From Candidatus Gracilibacteria bacterium CG2_30_37_12 (GTDB lineage: Bacteria; Patescibacteriota; Gracilibacteria; BD1-5; UBA2023), in NCBI GenBank assembly GCA_001873165.1, contig MNYO01000091.1, positions 1 to 13,278 of the forward strand: a stretch of DNA of 13,278 bases. The letters run 5' to 3'. The position numbers were made by a program, and so were the translations under genes. The notes beneath the pieces are model-generated. The model did no database searches, was not told the origin of the DNA, and saw only the letters and a list, made by a program, of their open reading frames with translations. Of this stretch, positions 302-10,422 are shown in pieces (positions within the stretch are counted from its first letter, which is position 1; each line of letters opens with the position of its first letter).

Positions 302-3145
302 ATGTCCCACTCTATCGAAGTTATCGGAGCCAAAACTCATAATTTGAAAAATATCTCAGTAAAAATCCCAAAAAATAAACTCGTAGTCGTAACCGGAGTT
401 TCTGGATCAGGGAAATCTTCTCTTGCATTTGATACTATCTATGCAGAAGGACAGCGTCGGTATCTCGAAAGTCTTTCCACCTACGCTCGTATGATTATCT
501 CTTCTATCAACGAGGATACAAAAGTAGATGAAATCCGTGGACTTTCTCCGACTATCAGTATCGATCAGAAAACCACTTCCAATAATCCCCGATCGACCGT
601 CGGAACCATTACTGAAATATATGATTTTTATCGCCTGCTTTTCACAACTATCGGAACTCAGAAGTGTCCCAATCATCCAGAAATCACTCTCAAAAAACAC
701 ACTATCTCAGAGGTAATCTCTTTTGTAAAACATCTCGGAGAAGGTGCTAAGATTCATGTCATGGCACCGATTCCTTTTTTTCAAAAGGATGCCACAATGG
801 AATCTATCAAACGCTATGTACTTGATAGCGGATTTGTTCGATTTCAGATTAATGACACAGTATATTCTGTCGCCGATGCCATCGATAAGGAAACTATTCC
901 CGAGAATGCAAAAATATCAGTAGTCATCGATCGACTCGTAGTGAAAGAAGAGGAATCATTCGGGAAACGACTCAGAGATTCTTTGGAATTTGCGTATAAA
1001 ACAGGAGAAGATATGCTCGAAATTTATCAGATTGATTCGAAAGAACGAGAAAGTTTCTCAGCAAAGGCTTCTTGTCCTCAGTGTGGAACTTCCAGCGAGA
1101 CACTTTCCATATCCAATTTCTCTTTCAATTCCCACTATGGAGCTTGCGAAAGTTGTGATGGACTCGGGACGAAAGTAACCTTCCTTGAAGAGAAGATTAT
1201 CAATGGAAATCTGACACTCGAAGAAGGAGCCATCCTTCCATGGACGAATCATGTCTATTATATGGAGATACTTCGAGCCGCTGCGAAGAAACATAAAATT
1301 AATATGAATGTACCTTACAATACTCTCAGTAAAAAGGCACGGGAAATAGTTCTCCATGGATGTAGTGAAGAGTTTGAAGTATTTCATACTTTCGAAGGAG
1401 CGAACGAAGGGAAGATGTATACTACGCGATATGAAGGAGTCGTAGGGAATCTCACACGCCGATATCATGAAACCGAGGCAAATGACGCTTTTATGAAGCG
1501 TATATCTCAGTACATAACCGAGATGGAGTGTGATGTCTGTAATGGACATCGACTGAAGACATCTTCGCTCCATGTATTTGTTGGATGAATAAATATCGGA
1601 GAACTTTCCAATAAGTCCGTTCTTCATTCCCTCGAATTCTTTAGAGAATTAAAATTCTCTCCTTCTGAAAAAACGATTACAAAGGGGATTATGAAAAATA
1701 TCGTCGAACGTCTGGAATTTCTCTCGGGAGTTGGACTGAATTATATGACTATTTCTCGGCGTGCTGGAACCATTTCTGGAGGAGAGTCTCAACGTATACG
1801 ACTCGCAACACAAATCGGGACGAAACTTGAAGGAATTACCTATATTCTCGATGAACCGTCCATCGGACTTCATGCACGAGATAATGGTATGCTCATAGAA
1901 AATATCAAAAAGCTTGTAGCTGTGGGGAATAGTGTCATCGTCGTCGAACATGACGAAGATATCATGGAAGCATCTGATTATATCCTTGATATAGGCCCTG
2001 GCGCTGGGAAACATGGGGGAGAAGTTATGGCACAAGGAACCTATGAAGAGATTATTAATAATCCTGCATCTGACACAGGACTCTATCTCTCGGGGAAAAA
2101 ACAAGTACTGCTTGAAAGAAGAAATCGAACACCCATTGGTTATATAGATATAGAAGGTGCTAATGAACACAATTTGAAAGATGTGAATGTCAAAATCCCA
2201 CTGGGAGTTCTCACAACCGTAACGGGTGTTTCTGGATCAGGAAAATCCTCCCTCATTATGGACATCTTAGCACCATATTTGATTAATGAACTCAGTACTG
2301 GAAATATGGTTCCAGTAGGGAAAGTTAAAAAAATCGAAGGAGCAAAACAATTGGACAAAGTAATATTGATTGATCAATCTCCTATTGGTCGTACTCCTCA
2401 TTCTAATATCGCCACTTATACGGGAATGTTTACACATGTTCGTGAAGTTTTTGCTGCCTCACTTGAAGCACAGAAACGCGGATATGGAATTGGTCGATTC
2501 AGTTTCAATACCAAGGGAGGACGTTGTGAGACTTGTGAAGGAAGCGGAGTAAAGAAAATAGAAATGCATTTCCTTCCCGATGTCTATATAGAATGTGAAG
2601 GTTGTCGTGGAAGTCGATATAATCCAGAAACCTTAGAAGTCAAATTCAAAGGGAAAAGTATCGCCGAGGTACTTCGAATGACCGTCGAAGAAGCACTTGA
2701 TTTTTTTACTGCTTTTCCTCGTATCAAACGAGTACTTGAAGTTCTCAATGATGTGGGACTTGGCTATATAGAACTTGGGCAGTCCGCACCAACACTTTCA
2801 GGAGGAGAAGCACAACGTATCAAACTCGCATTTGATCTCTCAAAACGGTCTACTTCTCAGACTATCTATGTCCTCGATGAACCATCCACTGGACTTCATT
2901 TTTCTGATGTTCAGAAACTCCTCTTGATCCTCGATCGTCTCGTAGAGAAAGGAAATACTGTACTCGTCATAGAACATAATCTCGACATCATCGCCAACTC
3001 CGACTATTGTATCGACATTGGACTTGAAGGAGGTGATAAGGGCGGGGAACTTATCTTCTCTGGTATCACGAGAGATATACTTAAAGAGAAACGTTCCTAT
3101 ACTGGGCAAGCTCTCAAGAAGTACTGGGAAAAAAATAAGAAATAA
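302..3145 (+). CDS. uvrA: UvrA, excision nuclease ABC subunit A (one UGA read as Gly)
   Basis: 947 residues, the usual UvrA length. UvrA dimers scan DNA for bulky damage and load UvrB in nucleotide excision repair, using two ABC ATPase modules. Seen in order: Walker A GVSGSGKS near residue 32; conserved [22 protein letters not shown]; zinc module CPQCG...CESC near 260-285; CDVCNGHRL near 415; UGA at residue 429 (1586-1588); ABC signature [11 protein letters not shown] near 492 and Walker [12 protein letters not shown]; second Walker A near 642; C-terminal zinc finger CETC...CEGC near 740-770; second signature [11 protein letters not shown] near 833 and Walker [12 protein letters not shown]. 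Under the standard code it would split into a 428-residue piece plus a second piece starting at 1691 in the same frame; the bridge reads FVG-G-INIGELS, as in UvrA. The start follows a T-rich leader without a Shine-Dalgarno. It ends in TAA, 15 bases before murB. Confidence 0.96.
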
Positions 3146-3160
3146 TACTAAGTAATACCT

Positions 3161-4222
3161 ATGCTTTCATTTCTCGAAACCGATAAAGATCTTCTCAAAT
3201 ACTCCTCCTTTCATACTCCTGCAACTGCACGATACTTTTTTGAATTGCGAGAAAAACAGGATATTCCAAAACTCCATAATATCTGGGGGTTCGCGCAAGA
3301 AAATAATCTCCCCATAGTATTTCTCGGAAGCGGCACAAATATACTTTTTGCATTTGATATATTCGAAGGAATTATCATACGAAATACTCTCAAAGGAATC
3401 GAATGGAAAGATAATATAGTAACAGTCGCTACAGGAGAACTCATATCACCTCTTTCACTTCAGATATCGAAAAAAATATCTGAAAAATTTAAGACCTCTG
3501 AAAAATGACCACACGGCCCCGATAAATCTTTTATAAGGTCCGGTGACATGTGAAATTCGTGCGAAAATCGAAGCCATAGTTCCCCCGAAGAGGGGTTATC
3601 AGAGGGAGACGTACTAAAGAGTACGACGAGTGAAGACACAGAGATTTGAACATGAAGTTCGCATTTTACTGAGGTCTTTTCTCTTTTTGGTAAATGGGTG
3701 GGGCTCCCTGGCACCGTTGGTGGGGCAGTAGCTGGAAATGCTGGATGCTTTGGCTTTGAAGCTAAAGATACTCTCATACAAGCAAATATTTTCGATATGG
3801 AAACGGGGGAATATATAACTCTCCGAAATAAAGAACTAGATTTTTCTTATCGTCATTCCATCTTAAAAGATTACTCAAATTGGTTTCTTGTGGATACTAT
3901 TTTTCGAACTAATCTCATCTCCGATGACACTACTAACCCAAGAACTTTCCGTTCTGGAAAACAACCTGGAGGTTTTACTTGTGGCTCATTCTTTCGAAAT
4001 CCACCATGAGATTCCGCCGGACGACTCATAGATCAAGTTTGACTCAAAGGACATCGTATCGGGGGTGTTAAGGTATCAGAAGTACACGCAAACTTCTTTC
4101 TGAATGATAAAAAGGGAAGTTATCAAGATATTCTCACATTACGAGATCTCGCAAAAGAGAAGGTGCAAGAAATGTTCGGGATAGAATTACAAGAAGAGGT
4201 ACGAATTATAGAAAATAAGTAA
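3161..4222 (+). CDS. murB: MurB, UDP-N-acetylenolpyruvoylglucosamine reductase, with in-frame insertion
   Basis: 353 residues with six UGA codons read as Gly (3506, 3551, 3647, 3653, 4007, 4040). MurB is the cytosolic FAD/NADPH enzyme that reduces enolpyruvyl-UDP-GlcNAc to UDP-MurNAc for peptidoglycan. Seen: N-terminal SSFHTPATARYFFEL; FAD-site GSGTNILF near 57; GLPGTVGGAVAGNAG near 180-194; YRHS with the substrate Arg near 231; CGSFFRNP with the proton-donor Ser near 276; SAGRLIDQVGLKG; SEVHANF with the catalytic Glu near 307; C-terminal FGIELQEEVRII. All key residues are present. Residues about 111-173 do not look like MurB and sit just before the GLPGTVGG motif; without them the protein would be about 290 residues, typical of the shorter MurB class. 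The frame stays open through this insert only if UGA is sense. It is 15 bases after uvrA, probably co-transcribed. Whether the enzyme still works is not certain. Confidence 0.92.
3491..3678. repeat. 188-bp inverted-repeat-bounded insertion inside murB
   Basis: The segment begins AAGACCTCTGAAAAATG (3491-3507) and ends CATTTTACTGAGGTCTT (3662-3678); the two ends are inverted repeats matching at 15 of 17 positions. Inside are CCCC-GAAGA-GGGG (about 3585-3597) and the perfect hairpin GTACT-AAAG-AGTAC. Four of the six murB UGA codons are here, and the translation is rich in Ser, Glu, Gly and Thr. No target-site duplication is clear. It resembles in concept the palindromic elements of Rickettsia that insert in frame in genes; no relation in sequence is claimed. 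Confidence 0.6.
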
Positions 4223-4234
4223 GTAAACACAAAA

Positions 4235-4294
4235 ACTCCAGAGTACTGCCCTTTGGAGAGCCCTCCAGAGGACTGTCTGCGCGAGCCTTCGGGG
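4235..4294. repeat. Dispersed repeat, copy 1 (downstream of TA operon 1)
   Basis: Begins ACTCCAGAGTACTGCC and contains CCCTCCAGAGGACTGTCT followed by CGCGAGCCT. A second copy at 4873-4931 matches over nearly its whole length apart from a small gap. Both copies lie just beyond the toxin stop of a minus-strand TA operon. Here the repeat begins 12 bases after the murB stop, after the string AAACACAAAAA that elsewhere starts the hairpin terminators. Confidence 0.8.
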
Positions 4295-4324
4295 ACGATA
4301 TACATGAACTTTCAGGGAGAAAAT

Positions 4325-4648
4325 TTATCGAATATCAAATTTACTAATACGTCGTTCTTGTAAATCATCATCTTCTGCCCACTCCAAGAAAATATATTTT
4401 GACCGCCAAGGCAAGACAATAGCATTCAATGATGTTTTCCCAAGTATCATTTCTTGTGATAATCGAGTTGTGATGAGTTTCATAATTTCATTTTTTCTCT
4501 GTTTTGATTCAGCAATATAACCATCAATAATCTGATCTTCAGACCAGATACCACTGTCTCTATAGAGATTTTCATAATATTCTCTGTATTGGATAATATA
4601 ATGTGCCAGATGAGCAGAGCTTTCTGTAGAAAAGTATACTTTAAACAT
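4325..4648 (-). CDS. Putative RelE/ParE-like toxin of TA operon 1
   Basis: 107 residues from the ATG at 4648, which overlaps the antitoxin stop by 8 bases. The protein starts MFKVYFSTES, has a charged helical middle (YREYYENLYRDSG, AESKQRKNEIMKLI) and ends in likely beta strands (RSKYIFLEWAEDDD, ISKFDIR). Size, basic/helical middle, C-terminal strands and a tiny overlapping upstream gene fit a type II mRNA-interferase or gyrase-poison toxin of the RelE/ParE fold, but I do not recognise a specific family and no catalytic set can be named. A longer open frame back to 4714 exists but would run through the antitoxin gene, so the ATG at 4648 is chosen. Stop is TAA. The TA call rests mainly on gene architecture and on sharing control DNA with the YafQ-like operon next to it. 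Confidence 0.6.
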   Translation of the reverse strand: MFKVYFSTESSAHLAHYIIQYREYYENLYRDSGIWSEDQIIDGYIAESKQRKNEIMKLITTRLSQEMILGKTSLNAIVLPWRSKYIFLEWAEDDDLQERRISKFDIR

Positions 4649-4769
4649 GATCAACAAGAGTAAAAGATGACTTCTTGGATCGTAGAGACTTTCGTAAGAT
4701 CTGTGACTGCTCAATAATAAGATGATCTAGTTGTTTAGAAAGCTCTCATGCCTCTATATAGTTTTTCAT
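4641..4769 (-). CDS. Putative 42-residue antitoxin of TA operon 1 (UGA-Gly)
   Basis: Reads MKNYIEAGELSKQL to the end FTLVDHV, then TAA; residue 8 is UGA (4746-4748), so it is invisible with the standard code. It ends 8 bases inside the toxin gene, the translational coupling usual in TA pairs. The start ATG is at exactly the same place, relative to the shared leader (GAGATTATG), as the start of the antitoxin in operon 2, which strongly supports it. The protein is short and amphipathic with a basic middle (RKSLRSKK). No known antitoxin domain is recognised; it could be a minimal toxin-binding antitoxin without its own DNA-binding domain. Confidence 0.62.
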
Positions 4770-4806
4770 AATCTCTAAAGTTATTTATAAATCCTCTTCA
4801 TTATAT
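4770..4806 (-). promoter_or_regulatory. Promoter/operator leader of TA operon 1
   Basis: On the minus strand: TATAAT at 4800-4805, then GAAGAGG, the perfect 10-bp palindrome ATTTATAAAT (4783-4792), AACTTT and GAGATT up to the ATG at 4769. The same arrangement, nearly base for base, precedes operon 2. The palindrome sits just downstream of the -10 box, where an autorepressor would be expected to bind. A -35 box is not clear. Confidence 0.7.
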
Positions 4807-4830
4807 TCAAACTCACCAAAATGCAAACAC

Positions 4831-4869
4831 AAAAAACTCCCCCGTCCATTGCGGACGAGGGAGTTTTTT
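4831..4869. terminator. Bidirectional hairpin terminator between the two TA operons
   Basis: AAAAAACTCCCCCGTCC, a short loop, then GGACGAGGGAGTTTTTT: arms pair at 16 of 17 positions with A/T tails on both sides, so it can terminate on either strand. It follows TA operon 2 (minus strand) and precedes the promoter of operon 1. Closely related hairpins are at 5580 and 6239. Confidence 0.8.
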
Positions 4870-4872
4870 CTT

Positions 4873-4931
4873 ACTCCAGAGCACTGCCTTCGTGAGCCCT
4901 CCAGAGGACTGTCTACGCGAGCCTGCGGAGA
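4873..4931. repeat. Dispersed repeat, copy 2 (downstream of TA operon 2)
   Basis: Begins ACTCCAGAGCACTGCC and contains CCCTCCAGAGGACTGTCT plus CGCGAGCCT, matching 4235-4294. It stops one base short of the stop codon of the YafQ-like toxin. In this copy the hairpin at 4831-4869 directly precedes the repeat; in copy 1 the hairpin is absent but its leading AAACACAAAAA is kept. Confidence 0.8.
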
Positions 4932-4932
4932 G

Positions 4933-5212
4933 CTAAAATATTTCGCTATGAGAACCGACTCGTAATAACTGTAAAATCAACTCTTTGTCTGATATCTTAT
5001 ATACAAGAAGAATATCAGGGAATATGTGACACTCTCTGAGATGAGACAATTTTCCATCTAAATTATGATCACAATATTTCTTTTCAAGTTTTGCTCAATT
5101 CTCAAGTAAGTCTATTACTCTTTCAAACTCTTGAGTGAAACGTTTATTATTTTTAAGTTTTTTTGTAATCACTTTTAAACCGAGAGGAAAGTTTTAGTGT
5201 ATAGAGAGACAT
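4933..5212 (-). pseudogene. YafQ-family mRNA interferase toxin, frameshifted at a run of seven A
   Basis: From the ATG at 5212 the frame gives 19 residues (MSLYTLKLSSRFKSDYKKT) then TAA. If one base of the A7 run (5158-5164) is skipped, it continues to TAG at 4933 as a complete toxin of about 92 residues, with one UGA-Gly (5095-5097). The reconstructed C-terminal part has KYCDHNL, HLRECHIFPD, LLVYKI and LLRVGSHSEIF, the hallmark of YafQ ribosome-dependent mRNA interferases. It keeps counterparts of E. coli YafQ His50, His63, Asp67 and His87; the Trp68 position is Ile. Three bases separate it from the antitoxin stop, so it is the second gene of the operon. It may be an inactivated toxin, one made by transcriptional or ribosomal slippage, or a sequence error. 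A GTG at 5172 is in the right frame and could start a 79-residue product lacking the first strand. Confidence 0.82.
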
Positions 5213-5215
5213 ACT

Positions 5216-5404
5216 TTATTTATTAAGATACTTAAACATCTCTTTTGAACTTTTAAATTCCACACCATTTACTTCTGTATCCTCTGTAAGTCTGAGTAAT
5301 TGTTCTTTTTTATCATCATCTATAAATGAATGGAGTCTTTTAAATTCACTGGTGCTAAATTTTACCAATACTACACTGCGAGTTTTATCAAGAATCTGTG
5401 CCAT
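5216..5404 (-). CDS. Antitoxin of TA operon 2 (partner of YafQ-like toxin)
   Basis: 62 residues, MAQILDKTRSVVLVKF at the N-terminus and KSSKEMFKYLNK at the end, TAA stop. It has an N-terminal beta-strand-like part and a charged helical C-terminus, as expected for a small antitoxin that dimerises and binds DNA at one end and covers the toxin with the other. No family signature such as DinJ/RelB is clear, so the assignment comes from its place directly upstream of a YafQ-like toxin (3-bp gap) and from the promoter/palindrome leader shared with operon 1. No in-frame UGA. Confidence 0.72.
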   Translation of the reverse strand: MAQILDKTRSVVLVKFSTSEFKRLHSFIDDDKKEQLLRLTEDTEVNGVEFKSSKEMFKYLNK

Positions 5405-5441
5405 AATCTCAAAAGTTATTTATAAATCCTCTTTATTATAT
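5405..5441 (-). promoter_or_regulatory. Promoter/operator leader of TA operon 2
   Basis: Minus strand: GGA-TATAAT (5435-5440), AAAGAGG, palindrome ATTTATAAAT (5418-5427), AACTTTTGAGATT then the ATG at 5404. It is almost identical to the leader of operon 1, and the likeness extends upstream to a shared TTTTTGTGTTT string before the -10 region. Confidence 0.72.
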
Positions 5442-5478
5442 CCAAACCGTAGGAAACACAAAAAGTATTTTATCAACA

Positions 5479-5558
5479 GAGGTACCGGTACCATACTATC
5501 AATTTCAAATCGAAAGTCAATCTTGAGAGAATTGAAGAATCTGAGATATTGGTACCTC
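5479..5558. repeat. Inverted repeat with GGTACC arms
   Basis: GAGGTACC (5479-5486) pairs with GGTACCTC (5551-5558). The left arm is part of a perfect 12-bp palindrome, GGTACCGGTACC (5481-5492), and the interior has further imperfect pairing (TCAATTT with GAATTGA). It lies between TA operon 2 and the RAYT gene with no ORF. Function unknown; it may be a structured RNA or a protein-binding site. Confidence 0.5.
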
Positions 5559-5579: not shown

Positions 5580-5618
5580 GAAAACTCCCCCATCCTTTCG
5601 GACGGGGGAGTTTTTTTC
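5580..5618. terminator. Bidirectional hairpin terminator downstream of RAYT
   Basis: AAAACTCCCCCATCC, TTTC loop, GGACGGGGGAGTTTTTTT. One A/C mismatch in the stem, and A/T tails on both sides. It lies 20 bases beyond the RAYT stop codon on the minus strand. The loop and inner stem are identical to the hairpin at 6239-6276, so the RAYT gene is bracketed by two copies in the same orientation. Confidence 0.78.
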
Positions 5619-5637: not shown

Positions 5638-6129
5638 TTATAATTCCAATTCATCGAGTATCAGATCTCTGTGCTTTTCTATTTTGTCCTTGTCTGTAAT
5701 CTGATGATAACTTGTCCATGGATAATCGTCTATATTCTCCACTATTCTATGTTTTACGGCATTGAAATTTACATACGATAAACACTGAGCTAGATACTCT
5801 TCATCCTGAATAAATCTTGCCCGAAAACGTCACTCAAATAACTGTCCTTTTCTCTCATACTTTATATTAAAATATTTCCCATACGCATTCTGTAGATCTC
5901 CGAAAAATGAAGAAATCTCTATTCATGAAGTGGATACAACACAATGAAAATGGTTTGGAAGAAAGGAATAAGCTAATATCTTAATTCCAGCATATTTAGG
6001 AGAACTCAAGTACTTTAAAACAAGTTTATAAAAGCGTTCAAAATCAGACATATTTTTAAATATGGTCATTTTTTCAAATCATCGATTATATATATGATAG
6101 TATCCTGGCTCAAAAGTTCTTATCGGCAT
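5638..6129 (-). CDS. REP-associated tyrosine transposase (RAYT, Y1_Tnp, IS200-like)
   Basis: 163 residues with three UGA-Gly codons (6079-6081, 5923-5925, 5830-5832), so it shows no long ORF with the standard code. Seen: MPIRTFEPGYYHIYNRG at the start; YSFLPNHFHCVV, the HUH metal-binding motif; LQNAYGKYFN with the likely nucleophile Tyr; KGQLFEGRFRARFIQ; YVNFNAVKHRIVENIDDYPWTSY. These are the standard blocks of RAYTs, single-strand DNA transposases that recognise REP hairpins and are usually single-copy and domesticated. Two of the UGAs are at the invariant Gly of YNRG and LFEGRFR. It has a good promoter between two inverted palindromes and ends in TAA before a hairpin terminator. HUH and Tyr residues are intact, so it may be active. 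Confidence 0.93.
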
Positions 6130-6213
6130 ATAACCCCGGGGTTAAAGTTTATTACAGAGAATGATATCGATTACACTTCGTAAGTCAAATGAGTTCAACC
6201 CCGGGGTTATATG
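6127..6213. repeat. Inverted pair of self-palindromic arms around the RAYT promoter
   Basis: CATATAACCCCGGGGTT (6127-6143) and its exact reverse complement AACCCCGGGGTTATATG (6197-6213) are 53 bases apart. Each arm also contains the perfect 12-bp palindrome AACCCCGGGGTT. The RAYT start codon is the CAT at 6127-6129, inside the left arm. This could be the REP/BIME-like target of the transposase, an operator, or both. Confidence 0.85.
6161..6188 (-). promoter_or_regulatory. Predicted promoter of the RAYT gene
   Basis: Minus strand TTGACT (6183-6188), 16-base spacer, TATCAT (6161-6166). Transcription would start around 6154 and the short leader would consist largely of the palindromic arm next to the ATG. 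Confidence 0.5.
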
Positions 6214-6238: not shown

Positions 6239-6276
6239 AAAAAAATCCCCCATCCTTTCGGACGGGGGATTTTTTG
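6239..6276. terminator. Bidirectional hairpin terminator downstream of the SLH gene
   Basis: AAAAAAATCCCCCATCC, TTTC loop, GGACGGGGGATTTTTT. It lies about 60 bases beyond the stop of the minus-strand SLH gene and just upstream of the RAYT control region. Third member of the hairpin family also found at 4831 and 5580. Confidence 0.8.
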
Positions 6277-6336: not shown

Positions 6337-9300
6337 TTATTTAACAGAGTTAAGTGGGAATGTCTCAGTATTGAGAGGGTAAGAAGCAGCGTCAAGACCA
6401 CCAGCAACAAGGCTAGTAAGACTTACAGTCCATGCTTCGTTAGTAGAAGCATTAAGAGTAAGACCTTCAACTTTTACTACGTAAGTAGTAGAAGAACCAG
6501 CACTTACAATACCGTAGCTATTAAGTGGAACAATAACAGTACCACCATTAGTAACACCAGTTGCAGAACCTACAAGTTGGTTAGTACTCTTAGTGTAAAT
6601 ACTAATAGTTGCACCAGTATATCCAGCAGTAGAGTATGCACCAAGAACAGTCTTAAGACTAGCACCAGTAAGAGTTACTTGATTCTTACCGAATGCATTT
6701 ACTGTAAATTCCATTGCATTTGTAGCAAGAGCCTTAGATACAGGAGTTGTTTGAGCAACCTTGAATGTATTCTCAGAAACATCATGAGATGCACCAGCAA
6801 CGTCAGTTCCTGTCATAACAACCACTGCACCGTTAGATCCAGTAATGTCAGAACCAGCAACAACAACATTAGCAACTACACCAGTTTGGTTTGTAGTAGC
6901 GTTAACATCAGCAAGTACATAGAAGATAACTGATTTATCCATAGCAACGATAGTACCGTTTCCAGTATTAAGATTTGCAAATGTAGCACCAGTATCAGTA
7001 AGACTAGAAGCAGTTCCAAGTACAGTCATAGCAGAATCTACGAGACGAATATTTGAAAGAGCACTAAGATTAGCACCAGTAAGAACGATATCCTTAAGTT
7101 TGATTACATCGTTAGATGCAGTAACCTTAAATGAAGCGATCTTTTGATCCTTAGCACCAGCAGTGAAGAGAGACTTGTTAATAAGTGTATCTCCAGTAGT
7201 AGCAGCAAGAGCACCAACAGCAGAAGCGATATTAAATGTAGCTCCAGCAACTGAAGTAGAAGCAACAGTTACAGAAGTAAGGTTATCAACTGCAGAGTAT
7301 GCAATAGATGCAACATTGAAGCTACCAGTAGTAGTAACATCAGAGAAGTCAGCCTTAATCATAATATCTACAGCCTTAGTTGTAGAAACAGTAGAATTGA
7401 ATCCAGCAAAGTTTACAGTAGCAGTAGTAAGTGATTTAGTACTTACAGCAACACCGTCAACATAAAGTGTAAGAGAAGTATTACCTCCAGTGTATGAAAG
7501 AGCATTTCCTGCAGTAGTAGCAGAAAGATTACTAAGAGCAATAGGATTTCCTTGTGTAGAAGAGAATCGAGCAGCATATACAGTAACACCCTTAGCACCA
7601 GCAGCGAGAGGAGTAGTTCCAAGACCGTCAGTACGAGTTACATTGAGAGTAGACGCACCAATAGTAATAGTTCGACCTTCGATAGAACCGATAGCAGAAG
7701 TTACAGCATTTTGATTAGCAACGTATTCTTTTCGAGTTACAACACTGTTGATATCAAGAGTACCGAGTTTAACAGTACCTGCAGCAGTATCTCGAAGTTT
7801 TACGTATGCTCGAACTGGTACAGTACCGTTTACAGTTGCAGTTCCGAGGAAGTTAAGAGTTCCTGTAAAAGTTGCACCTGGAGTAGCAGTAAATATAGCA
7901 GCACCGATTTGAAGGTATACAGTATTCATACTCATAGAACCAGTAGCAATAGTTGTAGTATATCCAAGATTGATATCTTCAAGAGTTACTGCAGCTTTAG
8001 CAGTAATAGTACCAGCCATAAGAGTTACGTCAGAAGTACCTGGAGCAACTGTCTCAGAAAGAGTAGAAGCAGTATCTCGAGCAAATCGAACGTCACCACC
8101 ATTTACAGTGTAAATAGCAGCATTGATAGGAGCAACTGAACTAATAGTAGCTCGGAATGCACTTGCTGTTTCAACCATATTTACATCAGAAGTATTCTTG
8201 ATGTAAAGTTGGTATGTATCAGAAGTAAGTTCTACAGTATTTACAACCGCCTTAACGTAGTAAATAGCAGTAGCACCATCCTTAATAGTATCGTTTACAG
8301 TAAGAGTAAGAGTCTTTCCAGAAACAACAGCAGCAGAAGAAACTACTACACCGTTTCTTTCAAGAATGATATTAGAAAGGTTTGTAAGACTTGCAGTACC
8401 ATTTTGGTAGATAGTCATAGATTGAACCTTAATATCACGAGTATCAGGATTAGTATCTGTATTAGCAACAGTGAATTTTGCAAATTCTACAGAATCTGCA
8501 GAAGCATTGTAAGTTTGCTCTGAAGCACCTGCTACGATAGTAGCAGTAGCAACATTATAACTTGCAGTTCGAAGAGTAGGAGTTACAAATGAACCATTTA
8601 CATTTGCAGCAGAGCTTGTAATAGCAGCTGAAGCGAACGCGAAGTCGTTTCCAGGAGAAGTAGCAAGTTCAACATACATATCAAGAGATTCAGTAGAACC
8701 AGCCTTCACAACGAGAGAAGGAGCAAATGAAACTACCGCATTATTCTCAGAAGTGAAAGAAGCCTTACCAGAAACACGAGTTCCAGCTTTTTCGAACCAT
8801 ACTTTTGTTCCAGGAGGAATAGTAGCAAGTCCAGCTTTCTTAAGTTCAAGAGTGTTTACTGAAATATCAGAACCACCAGCAGTAAGATCTACAACGGCAA
8901 ATCGAACAATTCCGTTTGAAGGAATCTGAGTTCCAGAAACAGGAGTAGCAGGATTAAGAACAACTGAAAGATCACCAGCAGCTACAGTAGTAGTTGTAGT
9001 AACAGTAGTACCAGTAGTTGTAGTAACAGTAGTTCCAGTAGTTGTAGTAACAGTAGTTCCAGTAGAAGTACCTAAGTCACCGAATAGGTCACTAAGATTA
9101 AGATCACCAGAAGTAGTTTCTACTGAAGCAGTAGTAGTAAGACCAGCAGCGTTAGCAGCTACCTTAAATGCTTCACCACGAGATGCATTGTTATTTGGAT
9201 TGAAGAGAAGACCCTTGTTAATAATACCAGCTTTAGCAGCAGCATTAATAAATCCATTTAAACTAGCGTCAGTACCAAGATCCTTAAATCCTTGATCCTC

Positions 9301-9726
9301 AGTAGTTGCAGCAATACCCTTTGCAGAAAGGAGCATCTTAAGCATCTCAGCACGAGTTACGAGGTCCATAGGACGAAATTTTGGAGCAATCTTGTTAACA
9401 AGATCAGCAGAAGCAGCAGCCTCTACATATCCACAAAGATCACCAATTGCAGAAGTAACATCTGAAAATACTTTACCAGTACATTCAGCAACTTTAGCTC
9501 CCTTAATATTTACAGCAACTTTAGCCATTTCAGCTCGAGTTACATTATTACCTAGATTATAACCTGCTTCGGTAGATTGTTTACCAATAATACCAGCAGT
9601 AGCAAGTGCATCAGCATAAGGAGTGAATGAGCTAGCAGCATTAGCAACGAGTGAAGCACTCATAGCAGATGCAACAATAGCAACCACACTTACAGCGGAC
9701 GTAACTTTCTTTAAAAGAATACTCAT
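6337..9726 (-). CDS. SLH-domain surface-layer protein, secreted
   Basis: 1129 residues. A signal peptide is clear: MSILLKK, hydrophobic core to about 27, likely cleavage after ANA (about 30). Three SLH-type repeats follow, about 33-75 (FTPYADALATAGIIG...VTRAEMAK), 87-138 (FSDV...VTRAEMLKML) and 145-196 (FKDL...ASRGEAFK). SLH domains anchor proteins to the cell wall; two Cys (AEC, DLC) could form a disulfide. Residues about 222-246 are a Thr-rich linker of GTTVTTTT repeats. The rest, about 255-1129, is Ala/Thr/Val/Ser-rich with alternating beta-strand pattern, like the Ig-like or beta-rich body of S-layer proteins. It has very few Cys, no UGA-Gly codon although Gly is common, and a strongly biased codon set, all fitting very high expression. 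Single-gene unit with its own promoter and terminator; TAA stop. The exact lattice role is inferred; another large adhesin is possible. Confidence 0.88.
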   Translation of the reverse strand: MSILLKKVTSAVSVVAIVASAMSASLVANAASSFTPYADALATAGIIGKQSTEAGYNLGNNVTRAEMAKVAVNIKGAKVAECTGKVFSDVTSAIGDLCGYVEAAASADLVNKIAPKFRPMDLVTRAEMLKMLLSAKGIAATTEDQGFKDLGTDASLNGFINAAAKAGIINKGLLFNPNNNASRGEAFKVAANAAGLTTTASVETTSGDLNLSDLFGDLGTSTGTTVTTTTGTTVTTTTGTTVTTTTTVAAGDLSVVLNPATPVSGTQIPSNGIVRFAVVDLTAGGSDISVNTLELKKAGLATIPPGTKVWFEKAGTRVSGKASFTSENNAVVSFAPSLVVKAGSTESLDMYVELATSPGNDFAFASAAITSSAANVNGSFVTPTLRTASYNVATATIVAGASEQTYNASADSVEFAKFTVANTDTNPDTRDIKVQSMTIYQNGTASLTNLSNIILERNGVVVSSAAVVSGKTLTLTVNDTIKDGATAIYYVKAVVNTVELTSDTYQLYIKNTSDVNMVETASAFRATISSVAPINAAIYTVNGGDVRFARDTASTLSETVAPGTSDVTLMAGTITAKAAVTLEDINLGYTTTIATGSMSMNTVYLQIGAAIFTATPGATFTGTLNFLGTATVNGTVPVRAYVKLRDTAAGTVKLGTLDINSVVTRKEYVANQNAVTSAIGSIEGRTITIGASTLNVTRTDGLGTTPLAAGAKGVTVYAARFSSTQGNPIALSNLSATTAGNALSYTGGNTSLTLYVDGVAVSTKSLTTATVNFAGFNSTVSTTKAVDIMIKADFSDVTTTGSFNVASIAYSAVDNLTSVTVASTSVAGATFNIASAVGALAATTGDTLINKSLFTAGAKDQKIASFKVTASNDVIKLKDIVLTGANLSALSNIRLVDSAMTVLGTASSLTDTGATFANLNTGNGTIVAMDKSVIFYVLADVNATTNQTGVVANVVVAGSDITGSNGAVVVMTGTDVAGASHDVSENTFKVAQTTPVSKALATNAMEFTVNAFGKNQVTLTGASLKTVLGAYSTAGYTGATISIYTKSTNQLVGSATGVTNGGTVIVPLNSYGIVSAGSSTTYVVKVEGLTLNASTNEAWTVSLTSLVAGGLDAASYPLNTETFPLNSVK
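8990..9061. repeat. Three tandem 24-bp units coding the Thr-rich linker
   Basis: Three consecutive 24-bp copies (8990-9013, 9014-9037, 9038-9061), differing by one base in the first, each coding eight residues of the GTTVTTTT linker between the SLH and beta-rich parts of the surface protein. Such repeats can change in copy number and so vary linker length. Confidence 0.85.
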
Positions 9727-9878: not shown

Positions 9879-9911
9879 GAGACCGGTCTCCTTTAAAAGG
9901 AGACCGGTCTC
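9879..9911. repeat. Perfect 33-bp palindrome upstream of the SLH gene
   Basis: Arms of 16 bases, GAGACCGGTCTCCTTT and its reverse complement, around a single A. Each arm carries the 12-bp self-palindrome GAGACCGGTCTC. It lies about 150 bases upstream of the SLH gene start. Its half-site matches the 38-bp palindrome upstream of recQ at 13 of 16 positions. No U-run follows on either strand, so it does not look like a simple terminator. Confidence 0.85.
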
Positions 9912-10056: not shown

Positions 10057-10422
10057 TTATTTCATCCGAGATGTTTTAAGAATACTTGTCAGTAATTTTA
10101 TTAACTCTATGCAATCTTTTTGAAGTGAATCTCACTGTGTCTTTGTGAGATTATTTGTTGCACAAAGAAGTAAGATCCAGTATTCCGTTTCTCGTGCTTC
10201 TTTCAGAGCGATTGATCACTTTGAAATAAAATCGGCAGTACTTTGGGCATCAGTCATTTCTGCAACATTTGCACCAATGGAAGTACCACTTCTTAAAAAC
10301 TGATTCACAAGATTTTTCTCTACATGCAAGGTATTCATATATTTAACAGCTTCAACAACTCGAACAGCAAAAGCAAAACTTTTATTTGCGATAATATTAT
10401 TCGTTTTCATATGGAGCTTCAT
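10057..10422 (-). CDS. Four-helix-bundle protein of the S23/IVP (bAvd-like) family
   Basis: 121 residues from the ATG at 10422 (117 from the second Met at 10410, which fits the family start MK..NIIANKSFAFAVRVV better). Two UGA-Gly codons (10216-10218, 10132-10134); without recoding it would stop early at ADFISK. Seen: NQFLRSGTSIGANVAEM, then STADFISK-G-SIALKEARETEYW, the diagnostic stretch of the family first found in 23S rRNA intervening sequences and similar to the Avd accessory protein of diversity-generating retroelements. These form pentameric four-helix bundles of mostly unknown role. Neither an rRNA nor a reverse transcriptase is in the window. The gene stands alone and is enclosed by inverted repeats at 10004-10044 and 10431-10482, suggesting it moved in as a unit. 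TAA stop. Confidence 0.88.

Follow-up and report, generated by a model that had tools for sequence, protein, structure and literature searches.

Chromosomal integrons (superintegrons), for example those of Vibrio, are arrays of small cassettes with many toxin-antitoxin (TA) pairs, and integrons are defined by a tyrosine recombinase. The locus described here resembles the Vibrio integrons in being an array of small cassettes with a constant element between different cores, but there is no integrase in the arrays and every unit has its own promoter and terminator. It also shares with REP/RAYT systems (REPtron, REPIN) a predicted RAYT flanked by repeated palindromes, paired at about 65 bp (77 bp in G060; G-numbers label genomes and L-numbers loci), but the palindromes are loopless here and border TA operons as well. 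To our knowledge, the benefit of RAYT/REP systems to their host is an open question. The cores are of the kinds known from type II TA systems (YafQ/DinJ, ParDE/RelBE, HicAB), from which the locus differs by its short antitoxins and by TOX1, a toxin without a Pfam or relevant NCBIfam model. In some E. coli, a TA operon is reported to stand in place of the REPtron locus (PMC6006769). The rAID arrays of Bacteroidales have a tyrosine recombinase and orphan immunity genes as their defining features (PMC12247911); the arrays considered here consist of TA pairs, and no tyrosine recombinase was found in them. Among the titles and opening lines of abstracts that were listed, TA arrays of this kind were not described. 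The small genomes of Patescibacteria have been hypothesised to be without defence and TA systems (PMC12455944); in the genomes analysed, TA operons accumulate at a single hotspot.

The window, the whole stretch of 13,278 nucleotides that was analysed, belongs to a genome of 946 kb (G000). Read with translation table 25 (TGA = glycine), it contains uvrA (recognised by eye) and murB and then, in the direction of their transcription, the S-layer gene, RAYT and two TA units. The S-layer gene, RAYT, the YafQ unit and the second TA-like unit are on the minus strand and converge on murB on the plus strand. The features are as follows.

3161..4222, plus strand: murB, gene at the border of the site, pointing towards the array (PF02873, E = 2e-28; PF01565)
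4225..4235, minus strand: AAACACAAAAA at the murB border, like the T-tail of a terminator; the array strand reads TTTTTGTGTTT
4235..4295, minus strand: REP-like repeat, copy 1, 3' of toxin 1 (direct-repeat match, dispersed)
4325..4648, minus strand: toxin 1 (TOX1), 107 aa, predicted fold of the ParE/RelE superfamily
4641..4769, minus strand: antitoxin 1 (42 aa), whose gene overlaps the toxin 1 start; homologous unit in G005
4767..4812, minus strand: leader 1, from the -10 box TATAAT to the start codon (direct-repeat match)
4825..4835, minus strand: AAACACAAAAA between hairpin and leader 1, a terminator tail merging into the promoter block
4831..4869, minus strand: terminator hairpin separating units 1 and 2
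4873..4931, minus strand: REP-like repeat, copy 2, 3' of toxin 2 (direct-repeat match)
4933..5211, minus strand: toxin 2 gene, YafQ family (PF15738, E = 4e-23; open 3' part 4933-5172)
5216..5404, minus strand: antitoxin 2, 62 aa
5402..5447, minus strand: leader 2 (direct-repeat match)
5454..5464, minus strand: AAACACAAAAA, upstream portion of the unit 2 promoter
5481..5492, unstranded: CCGG-centred palindrome GGTACCGGTACC, just 5' of the unit 2 promoter
5581..5615, unstranded: terminator-like hairpin between RAYT and unit 2
5638..6129, minus strand: predicted RAYT, a REP-associated tyrosine transposase of the HUH-Y1 type (above cut-off with PF01797, E = 1e-5)
6131..6144, unstranded: palindrome P2 with AACCCCGGGGTT core, at the start of RAYT
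6197..6208, unstranded: palindrome P1 (AACCCCGGGGTT), 65 bp upstream of P2
6241..6275: hairpin terminating the S-layer gene
6337..9726, minus strand: gene of the S-layer (SLH) protein, upstream border of the array site (PF00395, E = 2e-12)

The first-pass annotation had described two different TA operons with a common leader and a common repeat of about 60 bp, and the direct repeats confirm both at the places given: the leader copies at 4767-4812 and 5402-5447 share 93.5% identity along 46 bp (E = 1.7e-13), and between 4235-4295 and 4873-4931, the two copies of the repeat, identity is 87% over 61 bp (E = 5e-14). The repeat had moreover been regarded as the right-hand flank of the scaffold. It is found at seven further partial places in G000 with E not exceeding 1, of which four are weak (E > 0.05), and is consequently a dispersed REP-like element. 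Partial matches exist in three of 58 relatives, the one in G005 off the contig of the array, and no match was obtained in G003. As the repeat occurs without the leader, this half of the scaffold was refuted, and the repeat was rejected as part of a general frame. The hairpin proposed between the units is present at 4831-4869 without being confined to this place, recurring at 5581-5615 and at the end of the S-layer gene (6241-6275). Likeness among terminators weighs little, since terminators in these genomes generally look alike. AAACACAAAAA occurs at 4225-4235, 4825-4835 and 5454-5464, and in G006 and G003 the same tail stands behind the S-layer gene terminator. It reads as the tail of a terminator or as the beginning of the promoter block that follows, and as a recombination site it was set aside. 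A deletion between two ACTCC strings at the murB border, as previously suggested, is possible and would rest on 5 bp. In five loci, no Rfam family reached its gathering cut-off, and three weak matches below threshold close to the array were put down to chance. The frame is the terminator-promoter-leader block between operons.

Each unit consists of a putative ParE/RelE-, YafQ- or HicA-type toxin and an antitoxin, assigned by sequence or by predicted fold; the antitoxins listed are short, 41 to 73 aa. In the window, the 3' part of toxin 2 scores 82 bits with PF15738 (cut-off 30), which places it in the YafQ family, and the gene is frame-broken near its start. The intact copy of 92 aa in G005 reaches 75 bits with TIGR02385, above the cut-off of 27.9, and 71.9 bits with TIGR00053 (YafQ), under the cut-off of 87.25. 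For TOX1, which has homologues in 26 of the 77 genomes of the order, no Pfam family and only one irrelevant weak NCBIfam match were found, and fold prediction confidently gave a ParE/RelE-type fold. The two toxins had been called unrelated. BLASTP indeed gives no match between them, but in view of the fold predicted for TOX1 they may be distant members of one fold superfamily, and all array toxins other than HicA may belong to it.

The leader has exactly two matches in the genome of the window, even if three mismatches are allowed. With up to three mismatches, the same pattern was detected among the 77 genomes at two places each in G000 and G005 and at one place each in G003 and G002, and was absent from the remaining 73. 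All six places precede antitoxin genes, the cores being YafQ, TOX1 and ParE/RelE-like. A second genus has its own version of the leader, present in eight copies in two of eight genomes searched, four in G068 and four in G040, every copy inside an array; it was not found in the other six.

Differences in unit number were observed at the same site within the genus. The region from the S-layer gene to murB, the latter adjoining the site in G000, G001, G003, G004, G005 and G006, harbors no TA unit in G006, G004 and G001, one in G003, two in G000 and five in G005; a RAYT is also present there in G001 and in G000. No murB gene was found in G002. The genomes appear to be metagenome assemblies, and the comparison is one between genomes of the genus. 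The five cores in G005 are YafQ, ParE, HicAB, TOX1 and a toxin of 78 aa labelled ParE/RelE-like. The 'RelE' labels of the 78-aa toxins are those of this analysis with weak or absent Pfam support: the G005 protein has no Pfam match, and its relative in G068 matches PF05016 below cut-off. At the DNA level, the YafQ unit of G005 is 89.5% identical to that of the window over 544 bp and the TOX1 unit 86.9% over 502 bp. By eye, a terminator and a TATAAT promoter block stand upstream of every G005 unit. A promoter-led stretch with no clear gene was noticed between TA units 1 and 2 of G005 (L057, about 3030-3270), for which no Rfam family reached cut-off.

In other genera, arrays of two to six units behind an S-layer gene, with at most one gene between, are present in G017, G027, G031, G038, G040 and G068, the last with six units. 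A phmmer search identified an S-layer homologue in ten TA-bearing loci, those of the six array genomes, the window, G003, G005 and G035, the unit of G035 having been read only partly. One extra gene separates the S-layer gene from the first TA unit in G005, G017 and G068, and in G000 this position is held by RAYT. In G001 and G060, the S-layer site contains RAYT only. The G069 locus gave no S-layer match by phmmer and was placed by a downstream neighbour gene common to G068. Counting against the generality of the S-layer site, TOX1 loci with no S-layer homologue in the fetched stretch are L058-L061, L063, L066-L070, L072 and L106, some of them in tandem; L073, also a TOX1 locus, has just a partial S-layer match more than 2 kb away. 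A small ORF in the G040 array (L101, 6772-6909) seemingly joins the start of a TOX1-type antitoxin to the last part of the cognate toxin and resembles what a deletion would leave behind.

Frames and cores were compared for 33 units of 10 genomes, using the 70 nt upstream of the antitoxin start and a score of at least 35 as the limit for likeness. As BLASTP rates some TOX1 variants as unrelated, pairs were counted by named family; units, family labels and array limits were picked by eye and the pairs are not independent. Within the same array, leaders were alike in 14 of 36 pairs of different toxin families and in four of 10 pairs of the same family. Between genomes of one genus, same-core leaders were alike about as often (8/29) as different-core leaders (18/73). 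Between genera, likeness was seen in none of 92 pairs sharing a toxin family and in one of 282 pairs of different families. A shuffle test yielded z > 4 for 19 of the 38 same-array pairs with BLASTP E > 0.01. From the pair counts and the lineage-specific versions, the leader follows lineage and array, not the core. Sharing is not universal: 22 of the 36 same-array pairs of different families miss the score threshold, and clear sharing was not detected for the three G038 pairs and the different-family pairs of G069. In G068, two intergenic blocks, each spanning the interval between a toxin stop and the following antitoxin start, share 96.6% identity along 148 bp and precede a ParE and a TOX1-type core with a BLASTP E of 1.4 between them.

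Two other explanations were considered. Selection for a common operator and promoter, that is co-regulation, could keep leaders alike with no exchange of cores, and it would fit with leader patterns being located only before TA genes and with the features that by eye the listed leaders have in common even across families, a TATAAT-like box and AT-rich sequence ahead of the ATG. The 148 bp conserved in G068, however, take in the terminator and spacer of the preceding unit, leader versions are lineage-specific, and the same core family is preceded by different leaders in different genera (the 0/92 above), which makes this explanation improbable. That one TA operon was duplicated in tandem and the cores of the copies then diverged is still harder to maintain and is considered very improbable. 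Units are adjacent and mostly co-oriented, and true paralogues do occur as neighbours, for instance two ParE units in G069 (E = 5e-16) and TOX1 variants, but within an array HicA, YafQ, ParE and TOX1 show no BLASTP match below 0.01 while some frames are 90-97% identical. HicA in addition belongs to a different Pfam family, and its fold presumably differs from that of the other array toxins.

Taken together, arrays, frames shared in a lineage-specific manner, differences in unit number, one chimeric gene and, in two genomes, junctions on palindromes are present at these sites. They are probably best explained by an array of TA cassettes behind the S-layer gene that is reshuffled by recombination in the shared intergenic frames. 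Units are complete operons, every one of them with a promoter, leader and terminator to itself, and within one genome the frame is often common to units whose cores are not detectably related in sequence. Such frames could supply the homology at which incoming or neighbouring units recombine, the incoming DNA perhaps being taken up from relatives. By homologous exchange, mainly in the frames, units would be gained, lost and swapped; a new core would drop into the resident frame, and the terminator, promoter and leader of the host would stay. The shared leader would then put each new unit under a promoter/operator already working in the host, and the array illustrates at the sequence level how new TA pairs can come under such a promoter. 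Core exchange in a constant frame, as originally proposed, is backed by the leaders, cores and unit numbers of the relatives, with the 60-bp repeat left outside the frame.

One exchange was caught within a gene. In G017, which belongs to another genus of the same family, the antitoxin of the YafQ unit starts as does that of a ParE/RelE-like unit in G031; past a break, the antitoxin together with its toxin resembles the YafQ unit of G005. Before the break, 28 of 33 informative sites side with G031, and after it 129 of 152 side with G005 (maximum chi-square 66, not reached in any of 2000 permutations). Judged by these sites, the gene is a clear chimera, in which the leader-side part and the core-side part of an antitoxin have been brought together by recombination.

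That no integrase is in view had also been stated, and for tyrosine recombinases in the arrays this holds. PF00589 has 23 matches across all 12 genomes searched but none in any array, the nearest on an array contig being about 17 kb off (G068:C17); several array contigs are short, which limits how far their neighbourhood could be read. The window, however, does contain a predicted RAYT (5638-6129), a single-strand transposase of the HUH-Y1 type, which like the CCGG palindromes at 5481, 6131 and 6197 adjoins the units and was missing from the first-pass annotation. A possible, though doubtful, alternative is that a RAYT/REP-like system moves the units, the HUH-Y1 enzyme cutting or joining at the CCGG palindromes that border RAYT and TA units, which would yield an integron-like array without an integrase.

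One observation in favor of this alternative is the distribution of CCGG. In eleven array loci, G001 being included although its RAYT is not accompanied by a TA unit, 28 of 31 CCGG sites in arrays are centres of palindromes of at least 10 bp, compared with 8 of 138 elsewhere in these loci (Fisher p = 1.6e-21, with sites that are not independent) and one of 109 in 18 other fetched loci, among which are the empty S-layer sites L076 and L108 as well as L071, the G035 locus linked to an S-layer gene (0/1). Such palindromes were found in seven of the eleven array loci, mostly at unit borders; there they separate the terminator of a unit from the promoter of the unit that follows. Twelve of the 28 are from G017; 24 are intergenic or at the edge of a gene, and the remaining four fall within the two similar RAYT genes of G017. 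The arrays of G068, G040, G038 and G003, four of the eleven loci, contain no CCGG at all, and that of G069 has a single palindrome, which speaks against a general role. The sequences vary by lineage, with AACCCCGGGGTT in G000, G001, G031 and G060, GAGACCGGTCTC in G017 and G005, and AAGTCCGGACTT in G027, a shorter form of which is present in G069. By eye, the spacer between P1 and P2 holds promoter-like sequence, and the GT[AG]G guide of canonical REPs was not seen in the palindrome flanks, a further point against a REP-like system. Two GAGACCGGTCTC palindromes, 21 bp apart, are also located upstream of the S-layer gene of the window (9879-9911).

In a PF01797 search of 12 genomes, matches were obtained in G000, G001, G017 and G031, each with at least one in the S-layer site; this site holds the sole match of G031 and of G001, two of the three of G017 and a RAYT of G060, again in favor of a RAYT-driven process. 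Against it stand the other eight genomes (G003, G005, G006, G027, G038, G040, G068 and G069), in which no match with E of at most 0.001 was found. G000 has 13 other PF01797 matches, one full-length and 12 partial, four of which begin at the first bases of a contig. With NF047646, all four RAYTs scanned scored 56-64 bits, under the cut-off of 80 bits (E = 3e-15 for the window RAYT). AACCCCGGGGTT is present in seven of the 77 genomes; both copies of G000, all four of G031 and three of four of G001 are in the S-layer site, and it occurs at many other places in G047 (33 copies) and G059 (14). In G047, from another genus, it forms a dispersed palindrome family and is often paired about 20 bp apart among the matches listed.

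In two genomes, junctions coincide with palindromes. In G027, the border of units 1 and 2 combines the flanks of two palindromes: its left side matches that of palindrome 1 over 56 identical nt and its right side that of palindrome 2 over 50, both counted from the palindrome centre. In G017, a TA stretch of 607 bp lies exactly between two palindrome copies and parts one RAYT from its promoter; the second RAYT copy is uninterrupted. The right flank is identical for 402 nt and to 94.9% over 573 nt, the left flank to 88.5% over 156 nt. Both junctions speak for RAYT acting at the palindromes, but deletion between 12-bp repeats could also give a precise junction. Because the arrays of G068, G040, G038 and G003 are without both, palindromes and RAYT cannot explain every array. 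With recombination in shared frames as the favored process, some junctions would land on palindromes where these are present. Still more tentative, and considered unlikely, is a gene-capture platform of a new kind at the S-layer hotspot, in which complete TA operons would be palindrome-bordered cassettes handled by the array-borne RAYT, the frames having been homogenised later in lineages that lost RAYT. If true, it would be an analogue of the integron based on HUH-Y1 chemistry; should the link to RAYT hold, RAYT/REP systems would gain a testable gene-moving role.

Two further observations concern the window outside the array. The murB gene contains an in-frame insert of about 70 codons (3476-3690), absent at this position from murB of G001 and G003-G006. 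Its repeat, which we take to resemble the palindromic elements of Rickettsia, is also present elsewhere in G000, G001 and G002, and murB of G001 has its own insert at a different position, matching part of this repeat. Finally, a protein of the 23S rRNA intervening-sequence family (PF05635) is encoded at 10057-10422, beside a recQ-like gene.
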